Origin: Gemmatimonadota bacterium
GTDB taxonomy: Bacteria > JAAXHH01
Length of the DNA stretch: 64,000 bases
Direction of reading: 5' to 3'
Assembly: GCA_009835325.1 (NCBI GenBank)
Contig: VXWP01000039.1
Coordinates: 58,586-122,585 of the forward strand
Within the stretch, counting starts at the first letter, position 1; the number at the start of each line of letters is the position of its first letter. This document shows positions 1,334 to 40,372 of the stretch, one piece after another. A program made the position numbers and the translations under genes. Under the pieces are notes generated by a model. The model saw only the letters and a program-made list of their open reading frames with translations, was not told where the DNA came from and did no database searches.

Positions 1334-4036
1334 ATGCGTTGCGACCATGATACCAGGGGCAAATCAGCTTCACCCTCCTCCGCCGGTAACGGTATTGCAC
1401 GATACACAAAAAAGGCCATCCAATGGAGTCCGATCCGACTCTTCTGCTTACTCGCGCTTCTTGTGGTGACCTCCTGCGGCAAGGACAGCCCCACCGGGCC
1501 GGCCGGACCAGCCAACGTCGTCGTGACGCCGCAATCAGTGAAGCTGACCGCGATCGGCCAGTCCGTGCAGCTCGACGCGCAGGTGCAATACGAGGCCGGC
1601 GCGACATCGTCCGGACACACGGTGGTCTGGTCGAGCCGGAATCCGTCCGTGGCATCCGTGACCAGCGGAGGGCTCGTCACCGCGCTCAGCAACGGTACGG
1701 CCGATATCACGGCCACCGCGGGACAGAAACAGGGCAGGTCCACGATTACCGTATCCCAGGCTGCGCGAACGATAACGGTTGAGCCGTCGTCGGTAACGCT
1801 GACCATGGCCGACGAAACCGCGACGCTGAAGGCCTCGGTGCTGGACGAAAACGGCCAGGCCGTCGATGGCGCGGTAGTGAAATGGTCGATCAACGACGAA
1901 GCCGTGGCAACGGTAAGCGACGATGGCCTGGTCACGGCGATCAGAAGCGGCAGCGCGGTCGTGACCGCCGCCTCGGGCGAGGTTTCCGCCAGGGTTACCG
2001 TCACCGTTTCCATCGATGTCAGCGATCGTACCACGCTGACCGATTTCTACCACGCGATGGACGGTGCAAACTGGAATGAGCGCGATAACTGGTTGAGTGA
2101 AGAACCCCTGACCGAGTGGCACGGTATCACGACCGACGCCAACGGAAGGGTGATCCGGCTGGAACTGCGCTCGAACAACCTGTCGGGCGGGCTGCCCGGG
2201 AATCTCGTCAATCTCATCCTGCTGAGGGAACTGGATCTGGCGGGCAACCAGGTATCCGGCGCCATCCCGGCCGAGCTCACCCAGTTCGACGAACTGAGGA
2301 TCCTCGATCTGGGCGCCAATGAGATGTCGGGATCCGTGCCTGATGAGCTTGCCTTGCTTGCCAACCTGGAGATACTGAACCTGGGGAACAACAGCCTTAC
2401 CGGGTCCATCCCCGCTGAACTGGGACAGATGACCACCCTGACACGGTTGGACATTGGCGGCAACGACCTGACCGGTACGATTCCGCCGGAACTGGGCCGG
2501 CTTTCCAGTCTGAAGCACCTGGAACTGAACCAAAACGAACTGGATGGATCGATTCCTGCCGAACTGGGCGACTTGTCTCAGCTGAAGTTCCTGCACCTGG
2601 ACACGAACAAACTGACCGGCCCGATCCCGCCGGAACTGGGTAATCTGGAAAGCCTGGAGTTTTTGAACCTCTGGCGGAACAAGATTACAGGAGAGATTCC
2701 GGTTGAATTGAGCCAACTGGAAAACCTGGAACGCATGGATCTGGATGAAAATCAGTTGTCCGGACCGATCCCCGCCGACCTGGGACAGTTCCACAATCTC
2801 GAGATACTCTACCTCAATTCCAACAAACTGACGGGCGAGATCCCGACAGTCCTTGGGGAACAACCCAAGCTTCGTCTGTTGAGTCTCTATGGAAACGAGC
2901 TGACCGGCCCGGTACCGGTCGAATTGAGTCAACTCCCCAATCTCGAGATTCTTTATCTCCATAACAACGAACTGACCGGACCCATTCCATCCGAGTTTGG
3001 ACGGCTCCAGGATCTCGAAGCGTTGTACCTCCAAGGCAACGAACTGTCCGGGGCCGTTCCGTCCGAACTGGGGCAACTCGACGACCTGGAAATTTTGTAT
3101 CTCCATGGAAACCAACTCACCGGGATGATTCCCGAAACGTTTTCGGGCCTTTCAGACGTCACCCAGTTCTTCTTTCACGACAATGAAGGGCTGTGCTTAC
3201 CGAGCGTTCCGGCTTTGCTGGCCTGGGTTGACGGCCTGGACGAATGGATGGGGTCGCGGTGCGACGAAGCCGGATTCGCCGAAGGCCTCCTCATGGTGGG
3301 CGAAGGCGCCGACCGACTGTACAGACTGAACCCGAACACGGGGGAAGCCAAACCCGTCGGTGAAGCCGAGCGGTTCGACGTCGACGAGTACCAGCCCTAT
3401 GGCCTGACCGCGCACAACGGCGTGTTGTACATGACGGGCGGATGGAACGCGGTGCTGTACACCCTGGATCCGGAAACGGGCGTGGCCACGCAGGTCGGCG
3501 ACGCCGTGGAATTCGGGGTGGGCGAATCCCAGCCCATGGGCCTGGCGTCCCACAACGGCAGGCTGTACATGGCCGGCGGGACGAATGCCGGGCTCTACGC
3601 GCTGGATACCGTGACGGGAGAGGCCACCCCGGTCGGTAGCGCGGTTGAGTTCGGCGTCGGAGAAACCCAGCCCTTCGGTCTTGCGTCTCACATGGGCGGC
3701 TTGTTCATGGTCGGTTACAACTCGGCCCGGCTGTACGAATTGAATCCCGCAACGGGGACGGCATCGCCCGTGGGCGACGCGGGCGACTTCGGCGTCGGTG
3801 AAGACCTGCCGACCGGGCTGACGTCACACCGGGGCGTGTTGTACATGGCTGGCGGGTGGACGGCGAAACTGTACACGCTGGACGCAGACACGGGGATCGC
3901 ATCACCGATTGGGAGTGTCGACGAGGAGGTCAACCAGTTCGGCATCGATGAAGACGCTCCGACCGGGCTGGCTTCGCTGATGCGGGAAGTGTCGGCACGG
4001 AAGGTTGTGCCTGTGGTGAGGGTGGTGAAGGAGTAA
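1334..4036 (+). CDS. Surface lipoprotein: two Big_2 domains, about 14 LRRs and five propeller-like repeats
   Basis: Predicted 900-residue exported lipoprotein. The N-terminus is extended and basic, followed by a hydrophobic stretch and lipobox (VTSC, Cys about 48). Two Ig-like Big_2 domains follow (about 58-138 and 146-225). Next comes an LRR cap (DGANWNERDNW) and about 14 leucine-rich repeats of 24 residues, each ending in a variant of LTGxIPxELGxL, like plant receptor LRRs. From about residue 650 to the end are five roughly 46-residue repeats with LYxLxPxTGxAxPVG and a distal GLxxHxGxLYM, resembling propeller blades. A purine-rich AGGGA sits just upstream of the ATG. The modules point to an adhesive or ligand-binding surface protein; the ligand is unknown. 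Confidence 0.88.
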   Translation: MRCDHDTRGKSASPSSAGNGIARYTKKAIQWSPIRLFCLLALLVVTSCGKDSPTGPAGPANVVVTPQSVKLTAIGQSVQLDAQVQYEAGATSSGHTVVWSSRNPSVASVTSGGLVTALSNGTADITATAGQKQGRSTITVSQAARTITVEPSSVTLTMADETATLKASVLDENGQAVDGAVVKWSINDEAVATVSDDGLVTAIRSGSAVVTAASGEVSARVTVTVSIDVSDRTTLTDFYHAMDGANWNERDNWLSEEPLTEWHGITTDANGRVIRLELRSNNLSGGLPGNLVNLILLRELDLAGNQVSGAIPAELTQFDELRILDLGANEMSGSVPDELALLANLEILNLGNNSLTGSIPAELGQMTTLTRLDIGGNDLTGTIPPELGRLSSLKHLELNQNELDGSIPAELGDLSQLKFLHLDTNKLTGPIPPELGNLESLEFLNLWRNKITGEIPVELSQLENLERMDLDENQLSGPIPADLGQFHNLEILYLNSNKLTGEIPTVLGEQPKLRLLSLYGNELTGPVPVELSQLPNLEILYLHNNELTGPIPSEFGRLQDLEALYLQGNELSGAVPSELGQLDDLEILYLHGNQLTGMIPETFSGLSDVTQFFFHDNEGLCLPSVPALLAWVDGLDEWMGSRCDEAGFAEGLLMVGEGADRLYRLNPNTGEAKPVGEAERFDVDEYQPYGLTAHNGVLYMTGGWNAVLYTLDPETGVATQVGDAVEFGVGESQPMGLASHNGRLYMAGGTNAGLYALDTVTGEATPVGSAVEFGVGETQPFGLASHMGGLFMVGYNSARLYELNPATGTASPVGDAGDFGVGEDLPTGLTSHRGVLYMAGGWTAKLYTLDADTGIASPIGSVDEEVNQFGIDEDAPTGLASLMREVSARKVVPVVRVVKE

Positions 4037-27942: not shown

Positions 27943-29124
27943 TTGGCTCGAGTCCGGTTAAACAACCTTACGAAACACTTCGGCGATGTGGTGGCCGTGG
28001 ACGACGTCACGCTCGACATCGCCGATCGCGAGTTCCTGACGCTCCTGGGTCCCTCGGGCTGTGGCAAGACCACCCTGCTCAACATGATCGCCGGGCTCGA
28101 ATCCCCCACGGCGGGCGAGGTATGGTTCGACGACCGGAACGTGACGGCCGTGCCGCCCGAACGGCGGGACATCGCCATGGTATTCCAGACCTACGCCCTC
28201 TATCCCCACATGAGCGTCTTCGACAACGTCGCCTTTGGTCTCAAGATGCGCGGCGTGCCCGCGGAGGATCGAAAACGACTCGTGCTGGAAGCGTCAAAGA
28301 CCATGGAGATCGAACACCTGCTGGACCGCAAGCCCCGGGCGCTCAGCGGCGGCCAGCGGCAGCGGGTCGCCCTGGCCCGCGCCATCGTACGCGATCCGGG
28401 CGTGTTCCTCCTCGACGAACCGCTTTCCAATCTGGACGCACAGCTTCGCGTGGTGATGCGCACGGAACTCAAGCGGCTCCACGGCGAGCTGGAAATGACC
28501 TTCGTCTACGTCACCCACGACCAGGCCGAATCGCTCATCCTCTCCGACCGTATCGTGGTCATGAAGGAGGGGCAGATCCAGCAGATCGGCACCCCCGAGT
28601 CCATTTACGACAACCCCGCCAACACCTTCGTGGCGGGTTTCGTGGGGAGCCCGCCCATCAACCTGCTCAAGGGCACGCTGGAACAATCGGCCGGTGGCGT
28701 CTGGCGGGTAGTCGGCGAGGGGTACGCTTGTGATGTGGCTGCGTCGATGGTAGAGCGCATGGAACCGCCGGAAGGGCAGGAGGTATTTCTGGGTGTTCGG
28801 GCCGAGGACATCGGGGTAGAACCGGCTCCGGCATCACCGGGATCGACCAGTAAGGCACCAGATTCCGCGACTGCGGTAGCCTCGGCGCCGGACTCCGGGT
28901 CAAATAACTCCCGGCCTCCAGTCCGGGCAACGGTCGTCGTGCGCGAACCCATGGGCAGCGACCTTTACCTGACGGTTGATGTCGGAGGCACCAACGTCAA
29001 GGTGCGCACCCGGCCGGACGTTCGTTTCGACCGGGGCGACAGCGTGGATCTCTCTTTTGACCCTGGGAAGATACATCTGTTCGACGGGGAGAATGGAGAG
29101 GCGCTGACCACATCAAAATTATGA
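27943..29124 (+). CDS. ABC importer ATPase, MalK/UgpC/MsmX type
   Basis: 393 residues from a TTG start with GAGGAG upstream. Walker A is [10 protein letters not shown]-loop [14 protein letters not shown], signature [15 protein letters not shown], Walker [13 protein letters not shown] and H-loop VTHDQ. The C-terminal OB/TOBE domains bind the permease and regulators. Between the two TOBE parts (about residues 300-325) is a Ser/Ala/Pro-rich insertion not normal for the family. It energises the importer encoded by the three genes upstream. The gene ends where base composition drops into the AT-rich island. Confidence 0.95.
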
Positions 29125-29251
29125 TCTCATACTAACTGTATAGCAGAGTTCTTGATCCTGCAGGTTTCTCTTTAAAAAAACAATTGGTGTTTACAAATGT
29201 CGTAATTTATACGAAAGGGAAACATGTAGTAACGAACTGGTGGAGATGTGT

Positions 29252-29653
29252 TCACAACCCAGATTGGCTGCAACTTCGCATGTACTGAAAACTACTGAAA
29301 CAGTTATCTACGTCGTAGGGTGAACCATCAGAACGAATCTCTCCTTCTCGATCAAAACATAACGGACCATCGAAGTTACACTCAACAAATGACCCATCTG
29401 GGTTCAACCATATCCATGTAAAACCATCGCCACCTTTTGATTTCAACTTGCCTTCATCGCCAATAATCTCCCATGCATCCCTAAGGTCGGGAGCGCCAGC
29501 GTGACCAGCAGGTCTTAACATAAGATATTCTTCATATGTGACGATTCGAACGCTGGTCGGAAATTGTGACGGTGAATCGTTGCACTGTACACCGAATACC
29601 ATTGCCGAGACTACGACGAACATAGTTTTAGTACATAAAACGGGATTCGTCAT
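29252..29653 (-). CDS. Small lipoprotein of unknown function, last gene of the methyltransferase operon
   Basis: 133 residues, unrecognised. The N-terminal hydrophobic segment (MFVVVSAMVFGVQC) ends in a lipobox-like Cys24. The mature part has a segment WTWIWLNPDGSFVECNFDG-like in style and four further Cys, perhaps disulphide-bonded. Its ATG overlaps the stop of the small basic gene upstream (ATGA), which places it in the same operon as the methyltransferase-HNH gene. AT-rich, like the rest of the island. Confidence 0.65.
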   Translation of the reverse strand: MTNPVLCTKTMFVVVSAMVFGVQCNDSPSQFPTSVRIVTYEEYLMLRPAGHAGAPDLRDAWEIIGDEGKLKSKGGDGFTWIWLNPDGSFVECNFDGPLCFDREGEIRSDGSPYDVDNCFSSFQYMRSCSQSGL

Positions 29654-29847
29654 TTATCCCTATTCTTCTTTCGCATAAACTCCCATTGCTTCTGTGGTGG
29701 CGTTTTCGCATCAGCGCGTGCCAAATCTTCCGGGGAAGCAGCAATTGGCGGTGGTAGTGGATATATTACGGGCCTTCCACGCGTACGCGTAGGAGATGTA
29801 CTACCGACGATTTCTTTTTCCTTTGCCTTGCGTTTGCGCTTCACCAA
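29650..29847 (-). CDS. Small highly basic protein downstream of the methyltransferase
   Basis: 65 residues from a TTG or, one codon on, GTG start; 12 nt after the methyltransferase stop. The N-terminus is Lys/Arg-rich (KRKRKAKEKE), the middle Pro-rich (RPVIYPLPPPIAASP) and the end basic. It is probably disordered and could bind nucleic acid. There is no family match. The tight overlap at both ends argues that it is translated. Confidence is limited by its size. Confidence 0.5.
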   Translation of the reverse strand: MVKRKRKAKEKEIVGSTSPTRTRGRPVIYPLPPPIAASPEDLARADAKTPPQKQWEFMRKKNRDK

Positions 29848-29859
29848 AAAGTATCTGCC

Positions 29860-31152
29860 TTAGTACGGTTCATCAACGGACATTTGAGCATTCATAACGG
29901 ATACTCCATCTGAAGGGTAGTGTGGAAACCCCGGTTTGTAATACGGTTTACTGGTGGAATCACTACCCAGTTTCCACAACAGATACTCCATGCCGAACGA
30001 CCCCTTAACGCTGTTGCAGTACCCACATAACAGTTGCAGATTGGAGAGGTGGTCCGTGCCACCCACGCTACGGGCGATGATGTGATCCACCGTCAAGTTG
30101 TTGATCTTAAAGTGTTCCCTGCATCCGTTGCAATTCCCTTCCTGTTCGCCGTACAGGGCCGTTTTGTTCTCCTTGCAGTTGTACTTAGGCAGTTTGCCAA
30201 GATCGGTACGTTTAGGGATATCGAAACGTTGTGTAAGTGAGTAGAAAAGGCCCCCTGCGTCCTGAATCCGTTCCCTTACGAGTTCGTAAGCCTTCGGGGA
30301 AATGTCTATCCCCACCCATTGCCTGTTCAGGTTGTGAGCTGCTACACAGGCCGTAGCGCAACCGCAGAACGGATCCAACACAACATCCCCTTCATTGCTA
30401 CTGGCCTTTATAATTCGTTCCAGTAAGGCAAGGGGTTTCTGTGTTGGGTAACCTGTGCGTTCCTTCGATTGGGAATTAAGTACGGGAATAAACCAAACAT
30501 CCCCTGCCCTTACACCTTTAGGATCAATGTCAGTAACGTAAACATCCCCATCCTTGATTCTGGTATGGTAATGCTGCTTTCGTTCCAAAGAACGTTCAGT
30601 GTACGGGTCGTAGAGGACATTGTATTGGTAATAGTCGTTCTTGGTGTAGAAAAGAATAACGTCATGCAATCGTTGAAAACGTTTCGCCTTCCCGGTCCAC
30701 CTTCGATAGTGCCAAATCACTTCGTTTCTTAATCTGTACCGTCCAAAAATCGAATCCATAATCAGCTTTAAATAATGACTCATGGTGGGATCACAATGTA
30801 GGTATATTGACCCTGTATCCTTCAAAACGCGGTGCATTTCCAACAACCTGGGGGCCATGTAGATAAGGTAAGCCTTATCGGAGTCCGTCAACGTAGCATT
30901 TATGATCCTCGTAAGAACAGGATGGTTTTTCTCGAAATCCAGAAGCCACGCAAGGTCTATATCACTAAGTGTCCAAGTGTCCTTGAATTCGGCTCCGGCC
31001 GCCTTGCTCCCAATCGGTGCGGCGTAGTCGTGGTTCGAATTGAACGGAGGATCGAGGTAGATCAAGTCCACGGAATCGGAATTCATGCCGCGAAGGACTG
31101 GTAAATTGTCCGATGTCCACATGGTTTCATTGACCCAGTTAGACGTTGCCAT
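29860..31152 (-). CDS. DNA methyltransferase (N6-adenine/N4-cytosine, beta type) fused to an HNH nuclease
   Basis: 430 residues from the ATG at 31152, which has AGGGG 9 nt upstream; an ATG at 31161 overlaps that ribosome site. The methyltransferase part has the catalytic DPPF (about residue 34) in LIYLDPPFNSN, and the SAM-binding VLDPFCGCATACVAA near residue 265, the beta-class order. Residues 335-400 hold an HNH domain: a CNGC zinc knuckle, VDHIIARSVGGTDHLSNLQLLC and GYCNSVKG. Free methyltransferases modify a DNA site; the attached HNH could nick or cut. This may be a compact restriction-modification enzyme or a mobile-element methylase. It sits in a leftward four-gene operon divergent to the Mre11/SMC/OLD genes. 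Confidence 0.9.
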   Translation of the reverse strand: MATSNWVNETMWTSDNLPVLRGMNSDSVDLIYLDPPFNSNHDYAAPIGSKAAGAEFKDTWTLSDIDLAWLLDFEKNHPVLTRIINATLTDSDKAYLIYMAPRLLEMHRVLKDTGSIYLHCDPTMSHYLKLIMDSIFGRYRLRNEVIWHYRRWTGKAKRFQRLHDVILFYTKNDYYQYNVLYDPYTERSLERKQHYHTRIKDGDVYVTDIDPKGVRAGDVWFIPVLNSQSKERTGYPTQKPLALLERIIKASSNEGDVVLDPFCGCATACVAAHNLNRQWVGIDISPKAYELVRERIQDAGGLFYSLTQRFDIPKRTDLGKLPKYNCKENKTALYGEQEGNCNGCREHFKINNLTVDHIIARSVGGTDHLSNLQLLCGYCNSVKGSFGMEYLLWKLGSDSTSKPYYKPGFPHYPSDGVSVMNAQMSVDEPY

Positions 31153-31176
31153 AACTAACATCCCCTATTGGGCTGC

Positions 31177-31752
31177 TTATTTCTTAGGATCGTCACAATT
31201 TTGAGACGAGATAAACTCTTTCCATTGCCTACTAAGTACGGACACTTCACTTAACACGTTACTTAATTTGCCTTCTACTGCACTTAAACTGATTTCTATT
31301 GTTTTAACGATATCTTGGTATGGCGATAGACGTGTTAGTTCTTCATCATAAGAATCTGTTTCAATAACATCTTCGCCGCACAGGCGTTTTTTACCATGAT
31401 GATACCTATACTTCACTTTATATGATTCTCCGCTTGTTTTCTCCTTTAATGTCCACACCGTTCCCCACATAGACTCCCTATATTCTCCAGGTGCCAAAGA
31501 TGACAGTAACCCGGTTGACAATGGGCCTCTAATATCCGGAATCGGATATTCCATCTCGAAAGATATATCTGTCGCCACGTCTTTCCCTATGTTGTGTATT
31601 CGCAATTTCAACAAACCAGGACGAAGGTGATCGTGATGAGTATACACAATGATTCTGGGACGTGTTTGTGACTTGAACGTCCGCCATGCAATCACCGCGA
31701 TTGATATCGTTACCAAAACCATTAGCCCATTTACAATGGTGCCCACGTCCAC
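31177..31752 (-). CDS. Membrane-anchored protein of unknown function, first gene of the methyltransferase operon
   Basis: 191 residues from a GTG with AAGGGG upstream. One N-terminal membrane helix (VGTIVNGLMVLVTISIAVIAW) is followed by a beta-rich domain with LKLRIHNIGKDVATDISFEMEYPI, the pattern of an Ig-like domain seen in membrane-bound hypothetical proteins. A C-terminal predicted coiled coil or helix follows (VEGKLSNVLSEVSVL). Its upstream sequence resembles that of the methyltransferase gene (both contain AGGGGATGTTA), and the gap between them is 24 nt. Function unknown; AT-rich. Confidence 0.7.
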   Translation of the reverse strand: MDVGTIVNGLMVLVTISIAVIAWRTFKSQTRPRIIVYTHHDHLRPGLLKLRIHNIGKDVATDISFEMEYPIPDIRGPLSTGLLSSLAPGEYRESMWGTVWTLKEKTSGESYKVKYRYHHGKKRLCGEDVIETDSYDEELTRLSPYQDIVKTIEISLSAVEGKLSNVLSEVSVLSRQWKEFISSQNCDDPKK

Positions 31753-31826
31753 AATAACATCCCCTTAGATTGGATAGCTCATAGCCTACAGACTTTGACT
31801 CATTTCATTATTGTTTCTGTGGTCTC

Positions 31827-32165
31827 TTATTCAACCAAATCATTACACTTTAGTTTCTTGCCTTCAAGTCCCAAAACGATAGAACACATCTGATCCATCA
31901 CGTATCTGTGCATGTGCTTGCCACTCATTTTGTGATACGTTCCATGATAACCGCGATTGAATACCGACCGCTGCGTTTCAGACGCTTTGGTGGTTGCTTA
32001 GGTTTCGCTTACGTACTCACCCTGCGAGTGCTTTAGTTTTACCGCCTCGTGACTATAACCCGTCACGCAGTATACGCTTTCGCTTCATCTGTGTAAACCG
32101 TCAAACGGAACTTGATTACCGAAGGCATTCTGGTTTTATTACCGTAGTTTGCTTCAAAATGCATC
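31827..32165 (-). pseudogene. Decayed IS1595-family (ISXO2-like) transposase, C-terminal part
   Basis: Reading the minus strand in two frames recovers pieces of an ISXO2-like DDE transposase in the right order. They are VYTDEAKAYTA near 32085-32105; then, after a stop and frameshift, HEAVKLKHSQGEYVSET, a stop, and SETQRSVFNRGYHGTYHKMS; then GKHMHRYV joined directly to MDQMCSIVLGLEGKKLKCNDLVE and a stop at 31827. In intact relatives about 20 residues (the EFAGRHN region) separate the last two blocks, so there is also an internal deletion. The N-terminal zinc ribbon and first catalytic Asp are gone. I found no terminal inverted repeats. It lies exactly between the two divergent operons of the island. 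Confidence 0.85.
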
Positions 32166-32213
32166 AATTTTCAATATTGTGAAGATTACGTTTGATATAG
32201 GAAACAGTTGTCT

Positions 32214-33353
32214 ATGGTAAGGTTTATTCATACCTCCGACTGGCAGATAGGTAAGGTATTTCGGTTTTTGGATGACACCACGATGGGGTTACTCCAGGAA
32301 GCGCGTTTACAAGCAATTAATCGCATAGGAGAGCAAGCTCATAATTGCGAGGTCGAAGACGTTCTAGTAGCCGGTGATATCTACGACATGGAGGAACTTA
32401 CACCTCAATCGGTTAATCGACCACTTGAACGGATGCGAACCTTCTCGAACGTTGTATGGCATCTTATACCTGGAAACCACGATCCACATCGTCCAAATGG
32501 TCTATGGGATCGACTTTTACACAGGGGCCTGCCTGACAATGTGCGAGTCTACATAAAGCGAGAGCCAGTGATTCTAAAGGACAACGATTTGGCGCTTTTG
32601 CCTGCACCACTGCATTACCGGCATGAACTCGATGATATTACTGCCTACATGGATCATGTTGAACTTGCGGATGGCGTCGTGAGGATTGGGCTTGCTCACG
32701 GAACAGTTACTGATTTCGGATCCAGTAGTGGGAGAGCACCTAACTTCATTACGCCAGACCGTATACGAAGCGCAGACCTCGATTATCTCGCACTCGGAGA
32801 TTGGCACGGTCAGTTAAAGATCAATGAGAGGTGTTGGTACAGTGGAACCCCAGAAGTTGATGCATTTCATACAGAAAACGGCGGTCAAGCATTACTAGTC
32901 AAAATCGAGGGACGTGGTGCTACCCCAGTAGTGGAACCGTTTCCAACCGGATACTATACGTGGGAGCGAGTTACGGAACAAATCAATTGCGGTGAAGACA
33001 TTGACTACCTTGAAACCAGACTACGTGGTCTAGCTGAAGCACTAGATCGAGTATTGATTCACCTCGAAATAGAGGGTGCAGTGTCGTTAGAAGACCGCCA
33101 GCGTTTTCAGAATCAAATAACCGACGGCGTTACAGCCGCTTTCTGTTATATGAGAATTGATGATGACCATCTGTACTCTAAGCCAACAGAAAGGGATCTT
33201 GATCAAATCGATCGAGGAGGTTTCGTGCGTGCTGCTGCGGAAGAGTTGAAGCAGCGAGCAGAAGACGATAGTGACGAGGAACAAGCAATCGCCGCTCAGG
33301 CTCTACATCGGCTATTTATAGAACATATGAAGTTACAGGCGGGCCAACAGTGA
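32214..33353 (+). CDS. Mre11/SbcD-like metallophosphoesterase nuclease
   Basis: 379 residues from the ATG at 32214 (AGGAAA upstream). The phosphoesterase motifs are in order: TSDWQIGK (Asp9; the usual DxH has Gln11 here), VLVAGDIYDM, LIPGNHDPH, IGLAHGT and YLALGDWHG. Mre11/SbcD proteins cut DNA ends and hairpins together with a Rad50/SbcC ATPase. The next gene encodes such an ATPase and overlaps this one by 4 nt. The C-terminal 130 residues should form the capping and ATPase-binding part. AT-rich composition and the island setting suggest a mobile defence role rather than the housekeeping SbcCD. Confidence 0.9.
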   Translation: MVRFIHTSDWQIGKVFRFLDDTTMGLLQEARLQAINRIGEQAHNCEVEDVLVAGDIYDMEELTPQSVNRPLERMRTFSNVVWHLIPGNHDPHRPNGLWDRLLHRGLPDNVRVYIKREPVILKDNDLALLPAPLHYRHELDDITAYMDHVELADGVVRIGLAHGTVTDFGSSSGRAPNFITPDRIRSADLDYLALGDWHGQLKINERCWYSGTPEVDAFHTENGGQALLVKIEGRGATPVVEPFPTGYYTWERVTEQINCGEDIDYLETRLRGLAEALDRVLIHLEIEGAVSLEDRQRFQNQITDGVTAAFCYMRIDDDHLYSKPTERDLDQIDRGGFVRAAAEELKQRAEDDSDEEQAIAAQALHRLFIEHMKLQAGQQ

Positions 33354-36061
33354 GAATCCGCTCTCTGGCTTTCAATCAGTTTAAAAAATTCACTACTCCA
33401 ACACGTTTGGACGGTATCCAAGACGGACTCAACGTCGTAGTAGGGCCTAATGAAATCGGTAAGTCTACTTTACTTGATGCCTTCCAAGCTGTTCTCTTCC
33501 AAAGACATACCTCCAAGGCCAGTCCTATTAAGGCTTATCAGAACGACCGGAACCAAACCGCTCCCGTGGTCGAACTGACATTCGAACTGGAACATGACGT
33601 TTATCGCATCACTAAGCGTTTTGTGAAGAAGCCCTACGCCAAGTTAACCTGTCCAGACGGTCGGATACTGGAAGGCGACAATGCAGAAGCTTCACTCCGT
33701 AGTCTACTAGGTTTCTACGAGTCAGGGAATACAGGAGCGAAACCAGAGACGATGGGTATGTGGAATATACTCTGGGTAAAACAAGGCTGGTCTTTCCGTA
33801 CTCTCGATGTACCTGATAGCGCACGTACAAATCTTCACAGTGCACTAGAATCTGAAGTTGGCAATGTACTGGGAGGACGACGAGGCCGGGCTTTACCGCA
33901 ATCAATCGAAAAACAACTAGCGGCGCTGATTACACCAAATACTGGCCGCCCTCGTGGCAAATACAAAGAATCGAATGAACGAATCGAAACTTTGCGTAGT
34001 GAACATGAAAGCTTGCAGGCACGTCGCCAGGAACTCACAGATACACTAAACAAACTAGAGGACTCCGAAACCACTTTGGAACGTTTGTCTTCTAGTGAAT
34101 TCATTGATCAAGAAAAACAGGAGCTCGAAGACACACAGATAAGGTTTAGTGAACTTTCAGATTTGGAATCCAATATAGATACTGCACGCATGGAACTAGA
34201 ACTCCGTAAACAGAAACTCGAACAGGTTAACCGGAAGTCAGTTGAACGAGACGAGTTAAATACCGAAATCGAAATACTCCAAGAAAAACAAAGTAAGTCT
34301 AGGCAACGATTAGTAGAATTGGGGGAGAAGGTTAAAGAAGCCCAGGCACATCATCTGGAGTCTAGGACCAGTATTGAGAAACTAGAAGCGGTAGTATCCA
34401 AAGCTGAAGAATCCGTATCACGTTGTCGTCGAATACTGGTTGCCGTTGAGAACCGAATTCAAATAAACAAGCTTGAGCAGCAGTACCGAAAAGCTTTAGC
34501 ATCTGAAGTATACCAGCGGGAGGCCCTTGCATCTGCTGCGGCCATTCTTGTGACAGACGAGGTGATGGCTGGTATACTTGAAGCCGACAAAGAACACGAA
34601 AGAGTAAAGAACAGTCTAGATGCCTCTGCGACGATAGTCTCATTCGAGATGGAATCAGACGCGTTTACCGAGATAGAAGTTGATGGGAAACCAGTGACCA
34701 GTGATCAGTCGACTATTCGAATAGTAAAACCCACTGCTGTCACCATTCCGGGTCGTGGTCGCATCTTAATCGAACCAGGCATTAAGGATCGTGACAAACT
34801 GCTCGGTCAACTGTTGGAGGCTAACAACAAGTTGAGAATGGTTCTTGAAGCAGCAGGAGCCGAAACCGTCAGCGACGCGGAGGATCAGCATGTCAGACGG
34901 CAGACACTACTTCAAGATGCCGAGTTTGCCAGCCAACAAGTCGAATTGTATGCCCCAGCCACTGATGAACATCCAGCGGGAGCACAGTCTCTATCCGATT
35001 ACATTGATGGAATACGACAGGCTCTCGGGCGAGAGTTGGACCTGCTTCAAATGGATGAATTGCCGACACTTCAAAGTGCCAGAGACTCACTGCATGACGC
35101 ACAACTGCAGGCTGAAAACGCACGAGAGGATATCAGTACAGCACGTGCTTCGATGGTTGGTCCAGTCGAGAATATGAACTCCCTAACTTCCGAGCGTGAT
35201 ACCCTCCAGGGTGGTCATAACGAAAACAAAAACCGACTCTTAAATCTGGAGGAGAATCTAAAACAGTTGGAAAGTGAGCAATCGGATGAAGAACTACATT
35301 CTGCTATTGAAAAAGCAATAAACGATGTTTCGGTACAGGAAATACTTATCGTCGAACTCGAAGGACAAAGAACAGACGAGACTTTGCCACAGTTGGAAGC
35401 ACGCATAACTCGACTGGAAAAAGCCACCCAAGACAGGAACGAAAAACGTTCCGACCTTAAAATTGAGATTGCTCGTTTGAAATCACAAATTGAAGTGGTA
35501 GAGGGAGTTGGCCTCGACGAAGTAATCGGTGTTAAAACCAGTGAGTTAGAAAGTGCCGAGGCCGAACAAAGTCGAATGCGAAACGAAGTGAAGATACTCG
35601 ATCTGTTGCTATCGACCTTGCGAAAATCCGAGAGGGATGCAATGGAAAGATATCTCTCTCCTGTCCTCAAGCGTGTCCAGCCATATCTGCAACTGTTGTT
35701 CCCAGGCGCCAATTTAGAGATAGACCAGAATCTTAAAATACAAGGTGTAGAGAGGGTTGACGGGTATGTTGAAAACTTTCATCAACTGAGTATGGGTACA
35801 CAAGAACAAGTGGCGGTTTTGGTCCGTCTTGCATTTGCCGAAATGCTCGCCGAACAAGGTTATCCAGCTACTGTAATCCTCGACGATGCCCTTGTTTTTT
35901 CGGATGATCGTAGGATGAGCCGTATGTTTGATATTCTTAACATAGCATCCCGAACAGTTCAGGTAATCATTCTCACTTGCCGGGAACAACTTTTTGAGCG
36001 ACTTGGCGGTCATCAGCTAAGATTAAGTGACACTGACATTGACAATCTTGAGACAGCATAA
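33350..36061 (+). CDS. Rad50/SbcC/YhaN-like SMC ATPase
   Basis: 903 residues from a GTG that overlaps the upstream stop (GTGA). Walker A is VVGPNEIGKST (about 31-40); the ABC signature LSMGTQEQVAV and Walker B ATVILDDALVF lie in the last 100 residues, as in split-head SMC proteins. Long coiled coils occupy roughly 205-370 and 540-760. The centre (about 385-520) has a beta-rich segment (TEIEVDGKPV...VTIPGRGRILIEPG) instead of a CxxC zinc hook. It should form the ATP-driven clamp that feeds DNA to the Mre11-like nuclease. It is not a normal SbcC (about 1000 residues with a zinc hook) and looks nearest to YhaN-type proteins. Confidence 0.9.
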   Translation: MRIRSLAFNQFKKFTTPTRLDGIQDGLNVVVGPNEIGKSTLLDAFQAVLFQRHTSKASPIKAYQNDRNQTAPVVELTFELEHDVYRITKRFVKKPYAKLTCPDGRILEGDNAEASLRSLLGFYESGNTGAKPETMGMWNILWVKQGWSFRTLDVPDSARTNLHSALESEVGNVLGGRRGRALPQSIEKQLAALITPNTGRPRGKYKESNERIETLRSEHESLQARRQELTDTLNKLEDSETTLERLSSSEFIDQEKQELEDTQIRFSELSDLESNIDTARMELELRKQKLEQVNRKSVERDELNTEIEILQEKQSKSRQRLVELGEKVKEAQAHHLESRTSIEKLEAVVSKAEESVSRCRRILVAVENRIQINKLEQQYRKALASEVYQREALASAAAILVTDEVMAGILEADKEHERVKNSLDASATIVSFEMESDAFTEIEVDGKPVTSDQSTIRIVKPTAVTIPGRGRILIEPGIKDRDKLLGQLLEANNKLRMVLEAAGAETVSDAEDQHVRRQTLLQDAEFASQQVELYAPATDEHPAGAQSLSDYIDGIRQALGRELDLLQMDELPTLQSARDSLHDAQLQAENAREDISTARASMVGPVENMNSLTSERDTLQGGHNENKNRLLNLEENLKQLESEQSDEELHSAIEKAINDVSVQEILIVELEGQRTDETLPQLEARITRLEKATQDRNEKRSDLKIEIARLKSQIEVVEGVGLDEVIGVKTSELESAEAEQSRMRNEVKILDLLLSTLRKSERDAMERYLSPVLKRVQPYLQLLFPGANLEIDQNLKIQGVERVDGYVENFHQLSMGTQEQVAVLVRLAFAEMLAEQGYPATVILDDALVFSDDRRMSRMFDILNIASRTVQVIILTCREQLFERLGGHQLRLSDTDIDNLETA

Positions 36062-36078
36062 AGGAATAAACTGGACAC

Positions 36079-38013
36079 ATGAAAATAAAGTCTGTTCGAA
36101 TTCGGAATTTCAGATCGTTTGATGACATAACAATACCATTTAACAACTACGCGTGTTTCGTTGGACCAAATGGTGCTGGGAAATCCACAGTTTTAACTGC
36201 ATTGAACGTGTTTTTTAGAGAATATGAAAATCACCCAACTGACCTTAGCCAATTGGATATAGAGGACTTTCACTGCCGAAATACCGATAATCCAATCAGG
36301 ATTACAGTCACGTTCACCGAACTTAATGAGGAGGCTCAGGAGGATTTTTCGGACTATTATCGACAAGGATTACTTGTTGTCTCGGCCGTAGCGACATTCG
36401 ACGAAGACTCCCAAAAAGCGGAGGTGAAACAGTTCGGCGAACGGCTCGGAATGTCCGATTTCGCTCCATTTTTCAGGGCACTAGATAACGGTGAAAAGGT
36501 AGCAGTTTTGAAGGAGATCTATAGCAACATTCGAACTACTTACACGGACCTTCCGGCCCCCGGTACAAAAGAAACAATGAAAAGTGAACTTCGATCTTAC
36601 GAGAACAGCCACCCAGATGACTGTGAGCTCATTCCAAGCGAAGATCAGTTTTATGGGTTTTCAAGAGGGTCTAACCGACTTGCCAAACATATACAGTGGG
36701 TCTATGTACCTGCTGTTAAGGACGCAACTTCAGAACAAATAGAAGCTAAAAACACAGCATTGGGTAAGTTACTTTCGCGTACCGTACGTTTAAGGACGGA
36801 TTTCGATCAGTCAGTTAGGTCTTTGCGCATGCAGATGCAAGAACAATATCAAGTGTTGCTGGATGAAAACCAGCACGTACTCGATGAAGTGTCTGACTCA
36901 CTACAGAATCGCCTTACTGAATGGGCACATCCAGGAGCCAAGTTGAGTCTACAGTGGCAACAAGATCCTGATAGGTCTGTTAGAGTTGAAGAACCTTGGG
37001 CACATATTCTAGCTGGTGAAGGGGAGTTTGAAGGGGAGCTATCTCGCTTTGGGCACGGACTGCAACGGTCGTATTTACTAGCATTACTACAGGAACTGGC
37101 AGGAACGGACGTATCGGCAGCTCCCACTTTGATTCTAGCTTGTGAGGAACCGGAACTTTATCAACATCCACCTCAAGCTCGGTATCTTGCTGACGTGCTT
37201 AAAAGGTTAAGCAGCGACAACACCCAGATCATCATTACGACACACAACCCACTGTTTGTTTCGGGAGAAGGATTTGAGGATGTGCGGATGATCCGGAAAG
37301 CTTCGAATAGTCTAGCATCATCGGTCTCATATATGTCTTACGTGGACATTTCAGATGTGATTTCAGAAGTTCTTGAAACAAGACCACAAGCGCCTGAAGG
37401 AGCACTAGCGAAAATAAACCAAGCATTGCAGCCAGGACTTAATGAGATGTTTTTTACTCGTCGACTGGTTTTAGTTGAAGGCTTGGAGGATGTTGCTTAC
37501 ATACTTTCCTACATCAACTTACTTGATCGGTCCGAAGAGATTCGAAGAATCGGATGTCATATAGTATCAACGCAAGGTAAAAGTGAATTGTTGCAACCAT
37601 TCGTTATTGCAAAGCATATGAGTATTCCAACCTATCTCGTTTTTGACTCAGACGCTGATAAGCCAGACCGAAGCGGGAGTCGTTCTAAACATGAGAAAGA
37701 CAACAAAGCCCTTCTAAAGCTCGCTGATATACCGAACCCCAATGCGTTTCCAGATGAAACTTTCTGGAGCAGTGGGGTTACAATGTGGCATTCAGATATC
37801 GGAACTACTGTTCAATCGGAAATCGGTATAAGTGATTGGGCGGGATTCTCAGAGCAGGCTGATATACGTTTTGGCCAAGTTGGTGGTCTTAAGAAAAACA
37901 CATTACATATTGGTACAAGCCTTTCAATCGCTTGGGACGCTGGTAAACAATCAGAGAGTTTAATCCAACTTTGTGATGTTATATTGAATTCGGAGAACTA
38001 CATTGGAGCTTAG
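36079..38013 (+). CDS. OLD-family ATP-dependent nuclease (ABC ATPase plus TOPRIM)
   Basis: 644 residues, 17 nt after the SMC gene. The N-terminal ABC-type ATPase begins KIKSVRIRNFRSFDDITIPF with Walker A GPNGAGKST (29-37), and has a signature-like LSRFGHGLQRSYLLALL and Walker B TLILACEEPELYQHPP. An H-loop follows (IIITTHNPLFVSGE). The C-terminal TOPRIM domain has LVEGLEDVAYIL, STQGKSELLQPFVIAK and YLVFDSDADK, the metal-binding acidic residues of OLD nucleases such as P2 Old and Gabija GajA. No UvrD-like GajB follows; instead the partners are the Mre11- and SMC-like proteins. Three nuclease/ATPase genes in one operon point to DNA defence. Confidence 0.92.
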   Translation: MKIKSVRIRNFRSFDDITIPFNNYACFVGPNGAGKSTVLTALNVFFREYENHPTDLSQLDIEDFHCRNTDNPIRITVTFTELNEEAQEDFSDYYRQGLLVVSAVATFDEDSQKAEVKQFGERLGMSDFAPFFRALDNGEKVAVLKEIYSNIRTTYTDLPAPGTKETMKSELRSYENSHPDDCELIPSEDQFYGFSRGSNRLAKHIQWVYVPAVKDATSEQIEAKNTALGKLLSRTVRLRTDFDQSVRSLRMQMQEQYQVLLDENQHVLDEVSDSLQNRLTEWAHPGAKLSLQWQQDPDRSVRVEEPWAHILAGEGEFEGELSRFGHGLQRSYLLALLQELAGTDVSAAPTLILACEEPELYQHPPQARYLADVLKRLSSDNTQIIITTHNPLFVSGEGFEDVRMIRKASNSLASSVSYMSYVDISDVISEVLETRPQAPEGALAKINQALQPGLNEMFFTRRLVLVEGLEDVAYILSYINLLDRSEEIRRIGCHIVSTQGKSELLQPFVIAKHMSIPTYLVFDSDADKPDRSGSRSKHEKDNKALLKLADIPNPNAFPDETFWSSGVTMWHSDIGTTVQSEIGISDWAGFSEQADIRFGQVGGLKKNTLHIGTSLSIAWDAGKQSESLIQLCDVILNSENYIGA

Positions 38014-38116
38014 TTCAGTAGTCAGGTGTTTTGAGCAAAAACGAGATTTCGGTAGTGAGATCGTATCTCTTATGTGAGTTGCATCCCAGTCTTTTGGAAG
38101 CCGTTTCTATCGATCC

Positions 38117-38944
38117 TCAGTACTGCTGCTCATCCGGCGCATTTGGCTGCCCCGGATGCGATCCACCCGCGTTCTTGGCCGTGTTCCCGCCGTCCAGCGG
38201 CATGAGCGCTCCGGTGACCCAGCTTGAGGCGTCGGAGGCGAGGAAGATGGCCAGTCCCTGGATGTCTTCCGATTTTCCCAGGCGGCCGATGGGGATACCC
38301 CGCAGGTAGGTGTCGCCCAGCTTGGCGTCGGCGTCGATGCGCTTGCTCAGGCCTTCGTTCATGATCTGGGCGCATACGATGGCGTTGACGCGTACGCCCT
38401 TGCTGCTCCACTCCGTGCTCATCTCCCGCGTCATCTGGGCCACGCCGCCCATGGCGATGCTGTAGGACATGTGGCCGCGGCCGAGGGCCGACAGCCCGGC
38501 GATGGACACGATGTTGATGATGCTGCCCCGACCGGCCTCGATCATGCGCTTCGCGCCTTCCTGGCAGCAGACGTACCTTCCGACGACCAGCGTGTTCAGG
38601 GTCTGGATGAGCCCGGCTTCGGTAATTTCCAGGGGCAGTTGATTGATTCCCCCCTCTCCGGCGATATTGGCCAGTACGTCGATACGTCCGTAGGTTTCGT
38701 CCAGCCGTGCGAACATCTTGCGGATCTGCGCTCCGTTGGAGACGTCGCATACCACCGGCTCCGCTCGCCGGCCCCGGCGTTCGATCTCCCTGACCGTTTC
38801 CTGCATGCCCTCTTCATTGACATCGGCCAGCATGAGATCCGCGCCCGACTCGGCATAGGCGATGGACGTCGCCTTGCCCATGCCGGCGGCCGCGCCGGAG
38901 ACCAGGGCCACGCGTCCGCTCAGGTCGAATAATGGATGAGACAT
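38117..38944 (-). CDS. SDR-family oxidoreductase missing the catalytic lysine
   Basis: 275 residues from the ATG at 38944 with GGAGTGGCC upstream. The Rossmann motif is VSGAAAGMG, with Asp41 after the second strand favouring NAD(H), and the NAG equivalent is NIAGEGG. Ser147 and Tyr161 are present, but the residue four after Tyr is Met165 (ATG codon) instead of the catalytic Lys of YxxxK. Family members are dehydrogenases or reductases with about 250 residues; the Lys loss could abolish or alter activity. GC-rich like the core genome, it marks the right end of the AT-rich island and converges on the OLD gene. Confidence 0.88.
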   Translation of the reverse strand: MSHPLFDLSGRVALVSGAAAGMGKATSIAYAESGADLMLADVNEEGMQETVREIERRGRRAEPVVCDVSNGAQIRKMFARLDETYGRIDVLANIAGEGGINQLPLEITEAGLIQTLNTLVVGRYVCCQEGAKRMIEAGRGSIINIVSIAGLSALGRGHMSYSIAMGGVAQMTREMSTEWSSKGVRVNAIVCAQIMNEGLSKRIDADAKLGDTYLRGIPIGRLGKSEDIQGLAIFLASDASSWVTGALMPLDGGNTAKNAGGSHPGQPNAPDEQQY

Positions 38945-39297
38945 GGCCACTCCTGTTCGTGCCGGGTCCGAAATAAAACACCAGGTCGCTGTGTATTACT
39001 TAACCCCACTAGGATCTTTGTTCTTGGTTACAAAGACAAGGAGGAAGAAGGCGTTATTAGCGTGGTAGATTCAGTTTGAAGAGAATAGTAGATCCAATTC
39101 AATGCACAGGCATCGCAGTCTATCAAACACCTCAATTTGGATCCGCAGAGAAACTGACGAAAAACTGTAGCGATTTCGTCGAGTTCCAATTCGGTCTACT
39201 GATTCTTTCGATTACCGGGATGCACCCTCACATCAACTCCCTTGACGATCCAATCAACATACTTCAGCAGGCTAAGTTGATTGGAACTGTTTCGAAA
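38945..39297. other. 353-base AT-rich gap without a convincing gene
   Basis: Base composition falls abruptly after the SDR start. A short rightward frame (39076-39345) has no recognisable protein, no good ribosome site and runs into the 3' end of the membrane-protein gene. On the minus strand a broken reading (DWIVKGVDVRVHPGN and TELELDEIATVFRQFL) continues past the membrane-protein stop, perhaps an old coding remnant. No repeats or terminators stand out. Confidence 0.4.
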
Positions 39298-40146
39298 TCA
39301 AACCTGTTGTTCAAGCAGCACATCTATATCACGCTTGGTTCTTAATCTTATTAAATCTGCCCAGTTGTTTTTTCTAAACTCCCTCACATTCAAAAACCTC
39401 AGCCCAAATTTACAGACGATCTTTCTCATTGTGTACCGTCTGACCTTCTTGTCAATAAATTCGTTTATATCAAGCGCACTGAATAAGTGCGTATAGGTTT
39501 GATAGGTAACGACTAAGTGCATGAGAGGGATAAGTGATATCGAAAGAACAATCGGTACTAACACTATGCGGGCTGTTTCAAGCGATGCTAGAGTTTTGAA
39601 ATCGTAGAAAGCACTATATATTGCCGATCCAGCAATTACAAAACCCATGGAGGCTAACATCCAGCCTGTCACGGTCTCGGCTGACTTGTACTCTTCATTG
39701 GTTTTGGCAACTGCATTAGCTAGTCCAATGGTAATAAGAAAGAACTGTAATAGTAGCTCAATAAACACCGAAAAGGTATATGTTGAAACTAGATACTCAA
39801 GAATAACAATAGCTTTAACACTGTCAGTAACTAGAGTTCTGGCTGGACTCGTTATTGTATTCGAATCTTTAGCGATTTTAAACGTTTGCACTATACCTGC
39901 AAAGAAAAACCACATAACTGTCTCCTTTTGCAGGTCTATAGTCCAAATCCCCGAAACATACAATAACACTAGAATTACAGAGACATAACCAAGTAGGATT
40001 GCAACGAACTTAAACAATACCGGATTTTGGAATGGGATTTTCAGTATATTCCATAGGCACTTTCGTAAGTCTTTATGAAGCATTGCCAGTCCGATAACAA
40101 ATAACGTCCAGATGACTGCTGCAAATTCCCTATTGTTTAAATCCAT
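39298..40146 (-). CDS. Multi-spanning membrane protein of unknown function
   Basis: 282 residues from the ATG at 40146 (GAGAAG upstream; a GTG 12 nt earlier is possible). About six to seven hydrophobic helices are visible, for example EFAAVIWTLFVIGLAML, FVAILLGYVSVILVLLYVSG, FSVFIELLLQFFLITIGLA and IVLVPIVLSISLIPLMHL. The C-terminal 70 residues are basic and soluble (KKVRRYTMRKIVCKFGLRFL). No family is recognised. AT-rich composition matches the island at 29-38 kb, from which the GC-rich SDR gene separates it, so it may belong to the same accessory region. Confidence 0.72.
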   Translation of the reverse strand: MDLNNREFAAVIWTLFVIGLAMLHKDLRKCLWNILKIPFQNPVLFKFVAILLGYVSVILVLLYVSGIWTIDLQKETVMWFFFAGIVQTFKIAKDSNTITSPARTLVTDSVKAIVILEYLVSTYTFSVFIELLLQFFLITIGLANAVAKTNEEYKSAETVTGWMLASMGFVIAGSAIYSAFYDFKTLASLETARIVLVPIVLSISLIPLMHLVVTYQTYTHLFSALDINEFIDKKVRRYTMRKIVCKFGLRFLNVREFRKNNWADLIRLRTKRDIDVLLEQQV

Positions 40147-40372
40147 GCTACTTCTCACAAATGACTTAATTGGTTACCTGAAAACCTTCCAAATTTCAAG
40201 TCAGTAGACACGTTTTAGTTACCAGACTGCAGCACTTGAAATACCCTCTGTTCCGGTGCGAGGTACCGGTCAATCCCCTTTGCATTTGAGGCTGCTTCGG
40301 CATATATTATAAGGGTCTTTTCGCCTATTTATCCAGTCGTATTTACGACTAAGTATCTCGACGGACTTGCGA

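Follow-up and report, generated by a model that had tools for sequence, protein, structure and literature searches.

The window, which is the whole stretch of 64,000 nucleotides of DNA analysed, contains genes for an Mre11-like protein, a Rad50-like ATPase, and an OLD nuclease, arranged as a tight array on the same strand (+). The locus raises the question of whether these genes form a dedicated three-gene defence system, as an earlier note suggested, or were brought together from parts that also exist apart. It is of interest because the mobile Mre11/Rad50-like pair is repeatedly found near OLD, Gabija, and SIR2-HerA systems. The array seems to have been put together locally from known parts and does not resemble a new system of fixed composition.

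Organization of the Three-Gene Array

All three ORFs were found where the earlier note had put them. The first (32214..33353, + strand, 379 aa) encodes an Mre11/SbcD-like metallophosphoesterase with a Pfam Metallophos match (1.3e-7) and PDB matches to SbcD/Mre11; it starts with ATG, and a TTG located 6 nt upstream is a possible alternative start. The second (33350..36061, + strand, 903 aa) starts with GTG, overlaps the first by 4 nt (GTGA), and encodes a Rad50/SbcC/YhaN-like ATPase, which matches Pfam SMC_N (7.9e-13), together with AAA_15/AAA_27, and Rad50 structures in the PDB. The third (36079..38013, + strand, 644 aa) starts with ATG, is separated from the Rad50-like stop by a gap of 17 nt (AGGAATAAACTGGACAC), and encodes a Class 1-type OLD nuclease composed of an ABC ATPase and a TOPRIM domain (Pfam AAA_15, 3e-49; OLD-like TOPRIM, 6.2e-10; PADLOC Old, 7.4e-52). 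The frames are long and uninterrupted, and the motif scan found the Walker A, signature, and TOPRIM motifs intact. Given the 4-nt overlap and the 17-nt gap, the genes are probably carried on one transcript. A scan of the locus for sigma-70 promoters gave fewer matches than were obtained with shuffled sequence. The overlapping or near-touching genes in an AT-rich island described in the earlier note agree with the ORF positions and the GC content, and the family names given there (SbcD/Mre11, Rad50/YhaN, and OLD) are supported by Pfam, NCBIfam, and PADLOC matches.

AT-Rich Island and Its Insertion Site

The array is the right-hand part of a laterally acquired AT-rich island, which reaches further left than 32214–38013 and occupies about 9 kb (approximately 29110..38114), with an ABC-transporter ATPase gene on one side and an SDR gene on the other, as determined by blastn against sister genomes and by GC content. 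The island is absent at this site in all nine same-genus sister genomes examined by blastn. Homology with the sisters ends at about 29092–29109 and returns at about 38109–38121, and in two of them the flanking ABC-transporter and SDR genes are only about 45 and 77 bp apart. The GC content is 44–48% in the three genes and 41–48% in the island genes overall, whereas it is 63–65% in the flanking ABC, SDR, and uvrB genes. The SDR gene, which lies downstream of the OLD gene, is a host gene and is found in the sisters too. The insertion, its base composition, and its absence in the sisters show that the island was acquired from outside the host's lineage. The best relatives of the Mre11-like protein are alphaproteobacterial, and the 15 remaining genomes from the host's phylum yielded none. 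The island ends have no convincing flanking or terminal repeat or att site, and there is no integrase among the island ORFs.

Besides the three genes, the island contains a methyltransferase-HNH gene and two small ORFs. The former (29860..31161, − strand) is divergent from the array and encodes an N6/N4 DNA methyltransferase with a C-terminal HNH domain (Pfam N6_N4_Mtase, 3e-52; HNH, 7.2e-13). It could be a compact restriction-modification-like gene; its function is not tied to the array, with which it shares only the insert. An ORF of 191 aa (31177..31752, − strand) has no family match in Pfam, PADLOC, or NCBIfam.

At the same insertion site, a nucleotidyltransferase-domain protein (L073/G010, 3012–3737) is encoded in one sister genome, and a DUF4268 protein (L077/G006, 2100–3113) in another sister. 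Since the sisters carry different small genes there, the site is variable, which suggests an accessory-gene hotspot. A second AT-rich insert is located at 38954–40274, between the SDR gene and uvrB; it is missing in 9/9 sisters compared and contains an ORF of 286 aa (39298–40158) without a family match.

Features of the Mre11-like and Rad50-like Proteins

Judging by its sequence, the Mre11-like protein has a calcineurin-like phosphoesterase domain of the SbcD/Mre11 kind; its score against the SbcD profile TIGR00619 (NCBIfam) is 40.4 bits, which is under the cut-off of 77.65. Its metal-ligand motifs are altered: DxH is replaced by DWQ, and GHxH by GDWH. When the protein was aligned with 16 relatives, the HTSDWHLG sequence of E. 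coli SbcD was matched by HTSDWQIG both in the window protein and in the majority of the relatives (the H persists in some), and ALGHIH corresponded to ALGDWH, the GDWH being present in 16/16 relatives. Nuclease catalysis by this protein is possible; because the metal ligands are changed, such activity is not assured.

In the AlphaFold2 model of the Rad50-like protein (mean pLDDT 84, pTM 0.43), the ABC head is split by a long antiparallel coiled coil, and Rad50 heads are among the fold matches. The pTM value probably reflects the flexibility of the coiled coil. A motif scan found no zinc-hook CxxC in the 903 aa of this protein; where the hook is missing, a small beta domain is predicted in the coiled-coil region (about residues 426–475), the beta segment of the model spanning 428–474. 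The Walker B motif reads LDD instead of LDE in all 21 sequences aligned.

The Pair as a Separate Travelling Unit

A scan of genome contigs revealed relatives of the Mre11-like protein at 58 loci, mainly in Alphaproteobacteria. The Rad50-like gene stands alongside in 55 of the 57 loci examined, and the other two are cut short at a contig end. A relative of the window OLD was found at none of the 57 loci within the flanks retrieved, and the nearest pairs have other neighbours; the claim of a dedicated three-gene system is therefore not supported. The outcome that the earlier note named as refuting it, a triple without conservation in other genomes, was largely what was observed.

In the phylogenetic tree, the window Mre11-like protein belongs to a clade of six (SH-aLRT 99). 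The neighbours of the pair in this clade are OLD (the window), Gabija (L002), SIR2-HerA on the opposite strand (L003), and an AAA_13 ATPase (L061, a Maritalea plasmid); no neighbour system was seen for L004 and the degraded L005. The fused Mre11-SMC frame of L005 was considered as a new fusion and rejected: its SMC Walker A has been lost through an internal deletion, which makes it a degraded copy. L002 and L003 share 90% DNA identity over the pair only (2357–6242 of L002); the match is lost about 60 bp past the Rad50-like stop and is followed by Gabija in L002 and by SIR2-HerA in L003. Thus, the pair moves independently of the downstream genes, as the identity ends just after it.

A Gabija operon lies 69 bp after a closely related pair in Boseongicola. 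Similar neighbourhoods can be noted elsewhere. In Sphingomonas NY01, about 1.9 kb separate Gabija from the pair. SIR2-HerA follows the pair in Methylocystis as well, a different HerA gene follows it in Polymorphobacter, and DUF3320 proteins are encoded upstream of it in Rhizobium and Mesorhizobium. On the Sphingomonas plasmid pISP0 (L066, 4586–20601), the pair is located within a cluster of RecB-like nuclease, DEAD helicase, helicase, and N-6 methylase genes, which resembles DISARM-type systems. Only one good relative accompanied by the ATPase was found in the scan of viral contigs (L097, 39%), the rest being weak, and a viral origin of the pair was rejected.

At 31 loci, OLD/GajA/HerA genes made up 6/113 of the genes located up to 2.5 kb away from the pair and 0/108 of those more than 4.5 kb away (Fisher p = 0.03), in a small and partly hand-chosen sample with rough ORF calls and with other defence genes present in the far set. 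This comparison lends weak support to a defence setting of the pair. Since the GroEL-bait survey of 240 genomes recovered none from Alphaproteobacteria, and the best hit belonged to a phylum with only two genomes there, the neighbour frequencies are based on collections of contigs and plasmids.

Many copies of the pair have no such company. Several plasmid copies stand alone among metabolic genes, and in about 30 Acetobacteraceae genomes (L013–L058) the pair occurs alone and in synteny at a conserved chromosomal site next to FUSC/HlyD-type efflux genes. For these reasons, the pair might be no more than an enzyme of DNA repair. It would then be an accessory substitute for SbcCD, and OLD would be an unrelated chance neighbour in an insertion hotspot. 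The host genome, in which no SbcD-family match besides the island gene was found, and the other genes that the sisters hold at this site fit such an explanation, and the locus would be an ordinary composite island. We consider it unlikely, given that the OLD gene is on the same strand at a spacing of 17 nt, that OLD/GajA/HerA genes recur near the pair, and that a clade scattered over plasmids and islands would be unusual for a core repair enzyme. The earlier note would have taken a constant association with core repair genes as a sign of repair; what was observed is that mobile copies often adjoin defence genes and the Acetobacteraceae copies adjoin efflux genes.

OLD Nuclease and Its Relatives

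The OLD protein combines an N-terminal ABC ATPase with a C-terminal TOPRIM domain, and its motifs (GPNGAGKST, CEEPEL, LVEGLED, and DSD) are intact. A tblastn search of phages revealed a match with P2 Old. The nearest PDB structure to the predicted fold is the Thermus scotoductus OLD (6p74), followed by GajA. Neither a UvrD-type helicase nor a reverse transcriptase was found beside OLD among the island ORFs scanned. The closest relatives, with full-length identity of 45–49%, are encoded in six viral contigs; none of the six has an Mre11/Rad50 pair beside OLD in the DNA seen, the upstream sequence being short in several. Thus, the pair and OLD exist elsewhere as independent modules.

The best two plasmid matches to the window OLD, in Roseibium (32%) and Paracoccus (31%), both adjoin Mre11/Rad50-type pairs. 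In Paracoccus, the order is opposite to that in the window, with OLD first and the pair after a gap of 33 nt. In Roseibium, OLD follows a pair of another, larger family. No Mre11/Rad50-type pair is annotated near the next-best plasmid matches inspected. Of the co-occurrence suggested in the earlier note, the exact triple was not recovered elsewhere, and the looser adjacency of OLD and a pair was. Among the observations, this adjacency speaks most strongly for a functional link, if any, between OLD and such pairs. The array on the Roseibium aggregatum plasmid (L063, 3866–13343) consists of the larger YhaN-type pair followed by the OLD gene and an nSTAND3 protein gene and is possibly a multi-gene defence cluster.

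Taken together with the tight same-strand layout in the window, these two cases could point to a dedicated three-protein machine similar to Lamassu, in which the SMC-like ATPase and the Mre11-like protein would sense DNA ends and directly release the OLD effector within one complex. Variation of the effectors next to an SMC-like sensor is reminiscent of Lamassu (PMC10586767), and Lamassu LmuB is among the SMC-like proteins retrieved in the fold search. Such a machine nevertheless seems improbable: the triple is not conserved and its gene order varies, the Roseibium pair is of a different family, near-identical pairs adjoin unrelated, self-sufficient systems, and OLD relatives exist without any pair.

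Proposed Functioning of the Locus

We somewhat favour the interpretation that the locus is a composite defence island of two modules with independent existence elsewhere, namely a mobile end-processing pair and a Class 1 (P2 Old-type) nuclease. A defence role, as the earlier note suggested, is supported and probable. Judging from the protein families, the hookless SMC-like ATPase would clamp DNA ends in an ATP-dependent manner and feed them to the metal-dependent phosphoesterase. Most likely, incoming linear DNA would be attacked at its ends by the pair, with OLD as a second-line nuclease whose substrate would be DNA or tRNA. There is no need for the two modules to be joined in one complex.

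For OLD-family enzymes, the proposed stimulus is a block in DNA-end processing; in the case of P2 Old and Gabija, RecBCD inhibition has been reported as the trigger. Cells that are recBC- are killed by P2 Old (PMC10568477), Gabija is active on DNA that is free of RecBCD (PMC12407980), and, according to a statement in PMC13261556, inhibition of RecBC leads to tRNA cleavage by P2 Old. By analogy with P2 Old and Gabija (PMC10568477, PMC12407980, PMC12904381), the window OLD may be released when a phage protein blocks DNA-end processing, and a guard-like coupling, with OLD firing on such a block, is plausible. Against the guard link stands E. coli YbjD, also a Class 1 OLD, whose toxicity does not involve RecBC (PMC13261556). 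Since the mobile pair is found beside OLD and beside Gabija, independently of each, it would provide a natural case for asking whether guards can watch enzymes besides RecBCD.

The killing of recBC- E. coli by P2 Old could also mean that the pair is a safety partner, whose processing of host DNA ends would allow a new host to tolerate a guard-type OLD that is lethal when end processing is poor. The presence of the pair and OLD within one insert and the lack of another SbcD-family gene in the host would be in line with this; the AddAB-like genes of the host could already fill the role, however, and the phage OLD relatives travel without a pair, so we regard a safety function as very unlikely. 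A broader proposal is that the hookless pair is a portable accessory module, repeatedly recruited by unrelated DNA-directed or suicidal systems (OLD, Gabija, SIR2-HerA, AAA_13, and DUF3320 helicases), which would give DNA-end sensing or processing to the adjoining effector. We put it forward tentatively and consider it rather unlikely in this general form.

Comparison with Known Systems

Assignment of the locus to a known named defence system was rejected, since PADLOC matches are only at the level of the ATPase or of OLD/GajA. It is an arrangement of known protein kinds, and no system with such a composition was found in the literature searched, which does not extend to subscription papers or to most preprints.

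Class 1 OLD nucleases are defined as isolated genes. Like P2 Old and the Thermus scotoductus OLD, the window protein has an ABC ATPase and a TOPRIM domain, has no neighbouring helicase or RT, and has its nearest relatives in phages. Unlike them, it is not isolated; its gene begins 17 nt after the Rad50-like gene and shares the island with the methyltransferase-HNH gene. With SbcCD/YhaON of the Mre11-Rad50 type, the pair shares the order of phosphoesterase then ATPase, the overlap of the genes, and the ABC head with a long coiled coil, but it differs in its score below the SbcD cut-off, the DWQ/GDWH ligands, the small beta domain in place of the zinc hook, and its mobility. Gabija (GajA-GajB), a Class 2 OLD system, is similar in that GajA is an OLD-family nuclease and that it lies next to or near related pairs elsewhere; in contrast, the window island has no UvrD/PcrA/Rep-like helicase (GajB), and its OLD is 27% identical to GajA.

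A single gene pair beside several immune systems has a parallel in the nuclease-protease pairs recurrently gained by unrelated antiviral systems (PMC12799240), although the protein families are different and activation of the nuclease was demonstrated by assay in that work. In Lamassu (LmuA-LmuC-LmuB), as here, an SMC/Rad50-like protein occurs with varying effectors. PADLOC gave only a partial LmuB match for the island proteins (7.8e-12) and no LmuA or LmuC. The window locus differs from Lamassu in having an Mre11-like subunit and in that the neighbours of the pair are complete systems, not swapped domains. The setting of the pair resembles the proposed kinship of Rad50-like repair machines with SMC-like immune systems, such as Lamassu.
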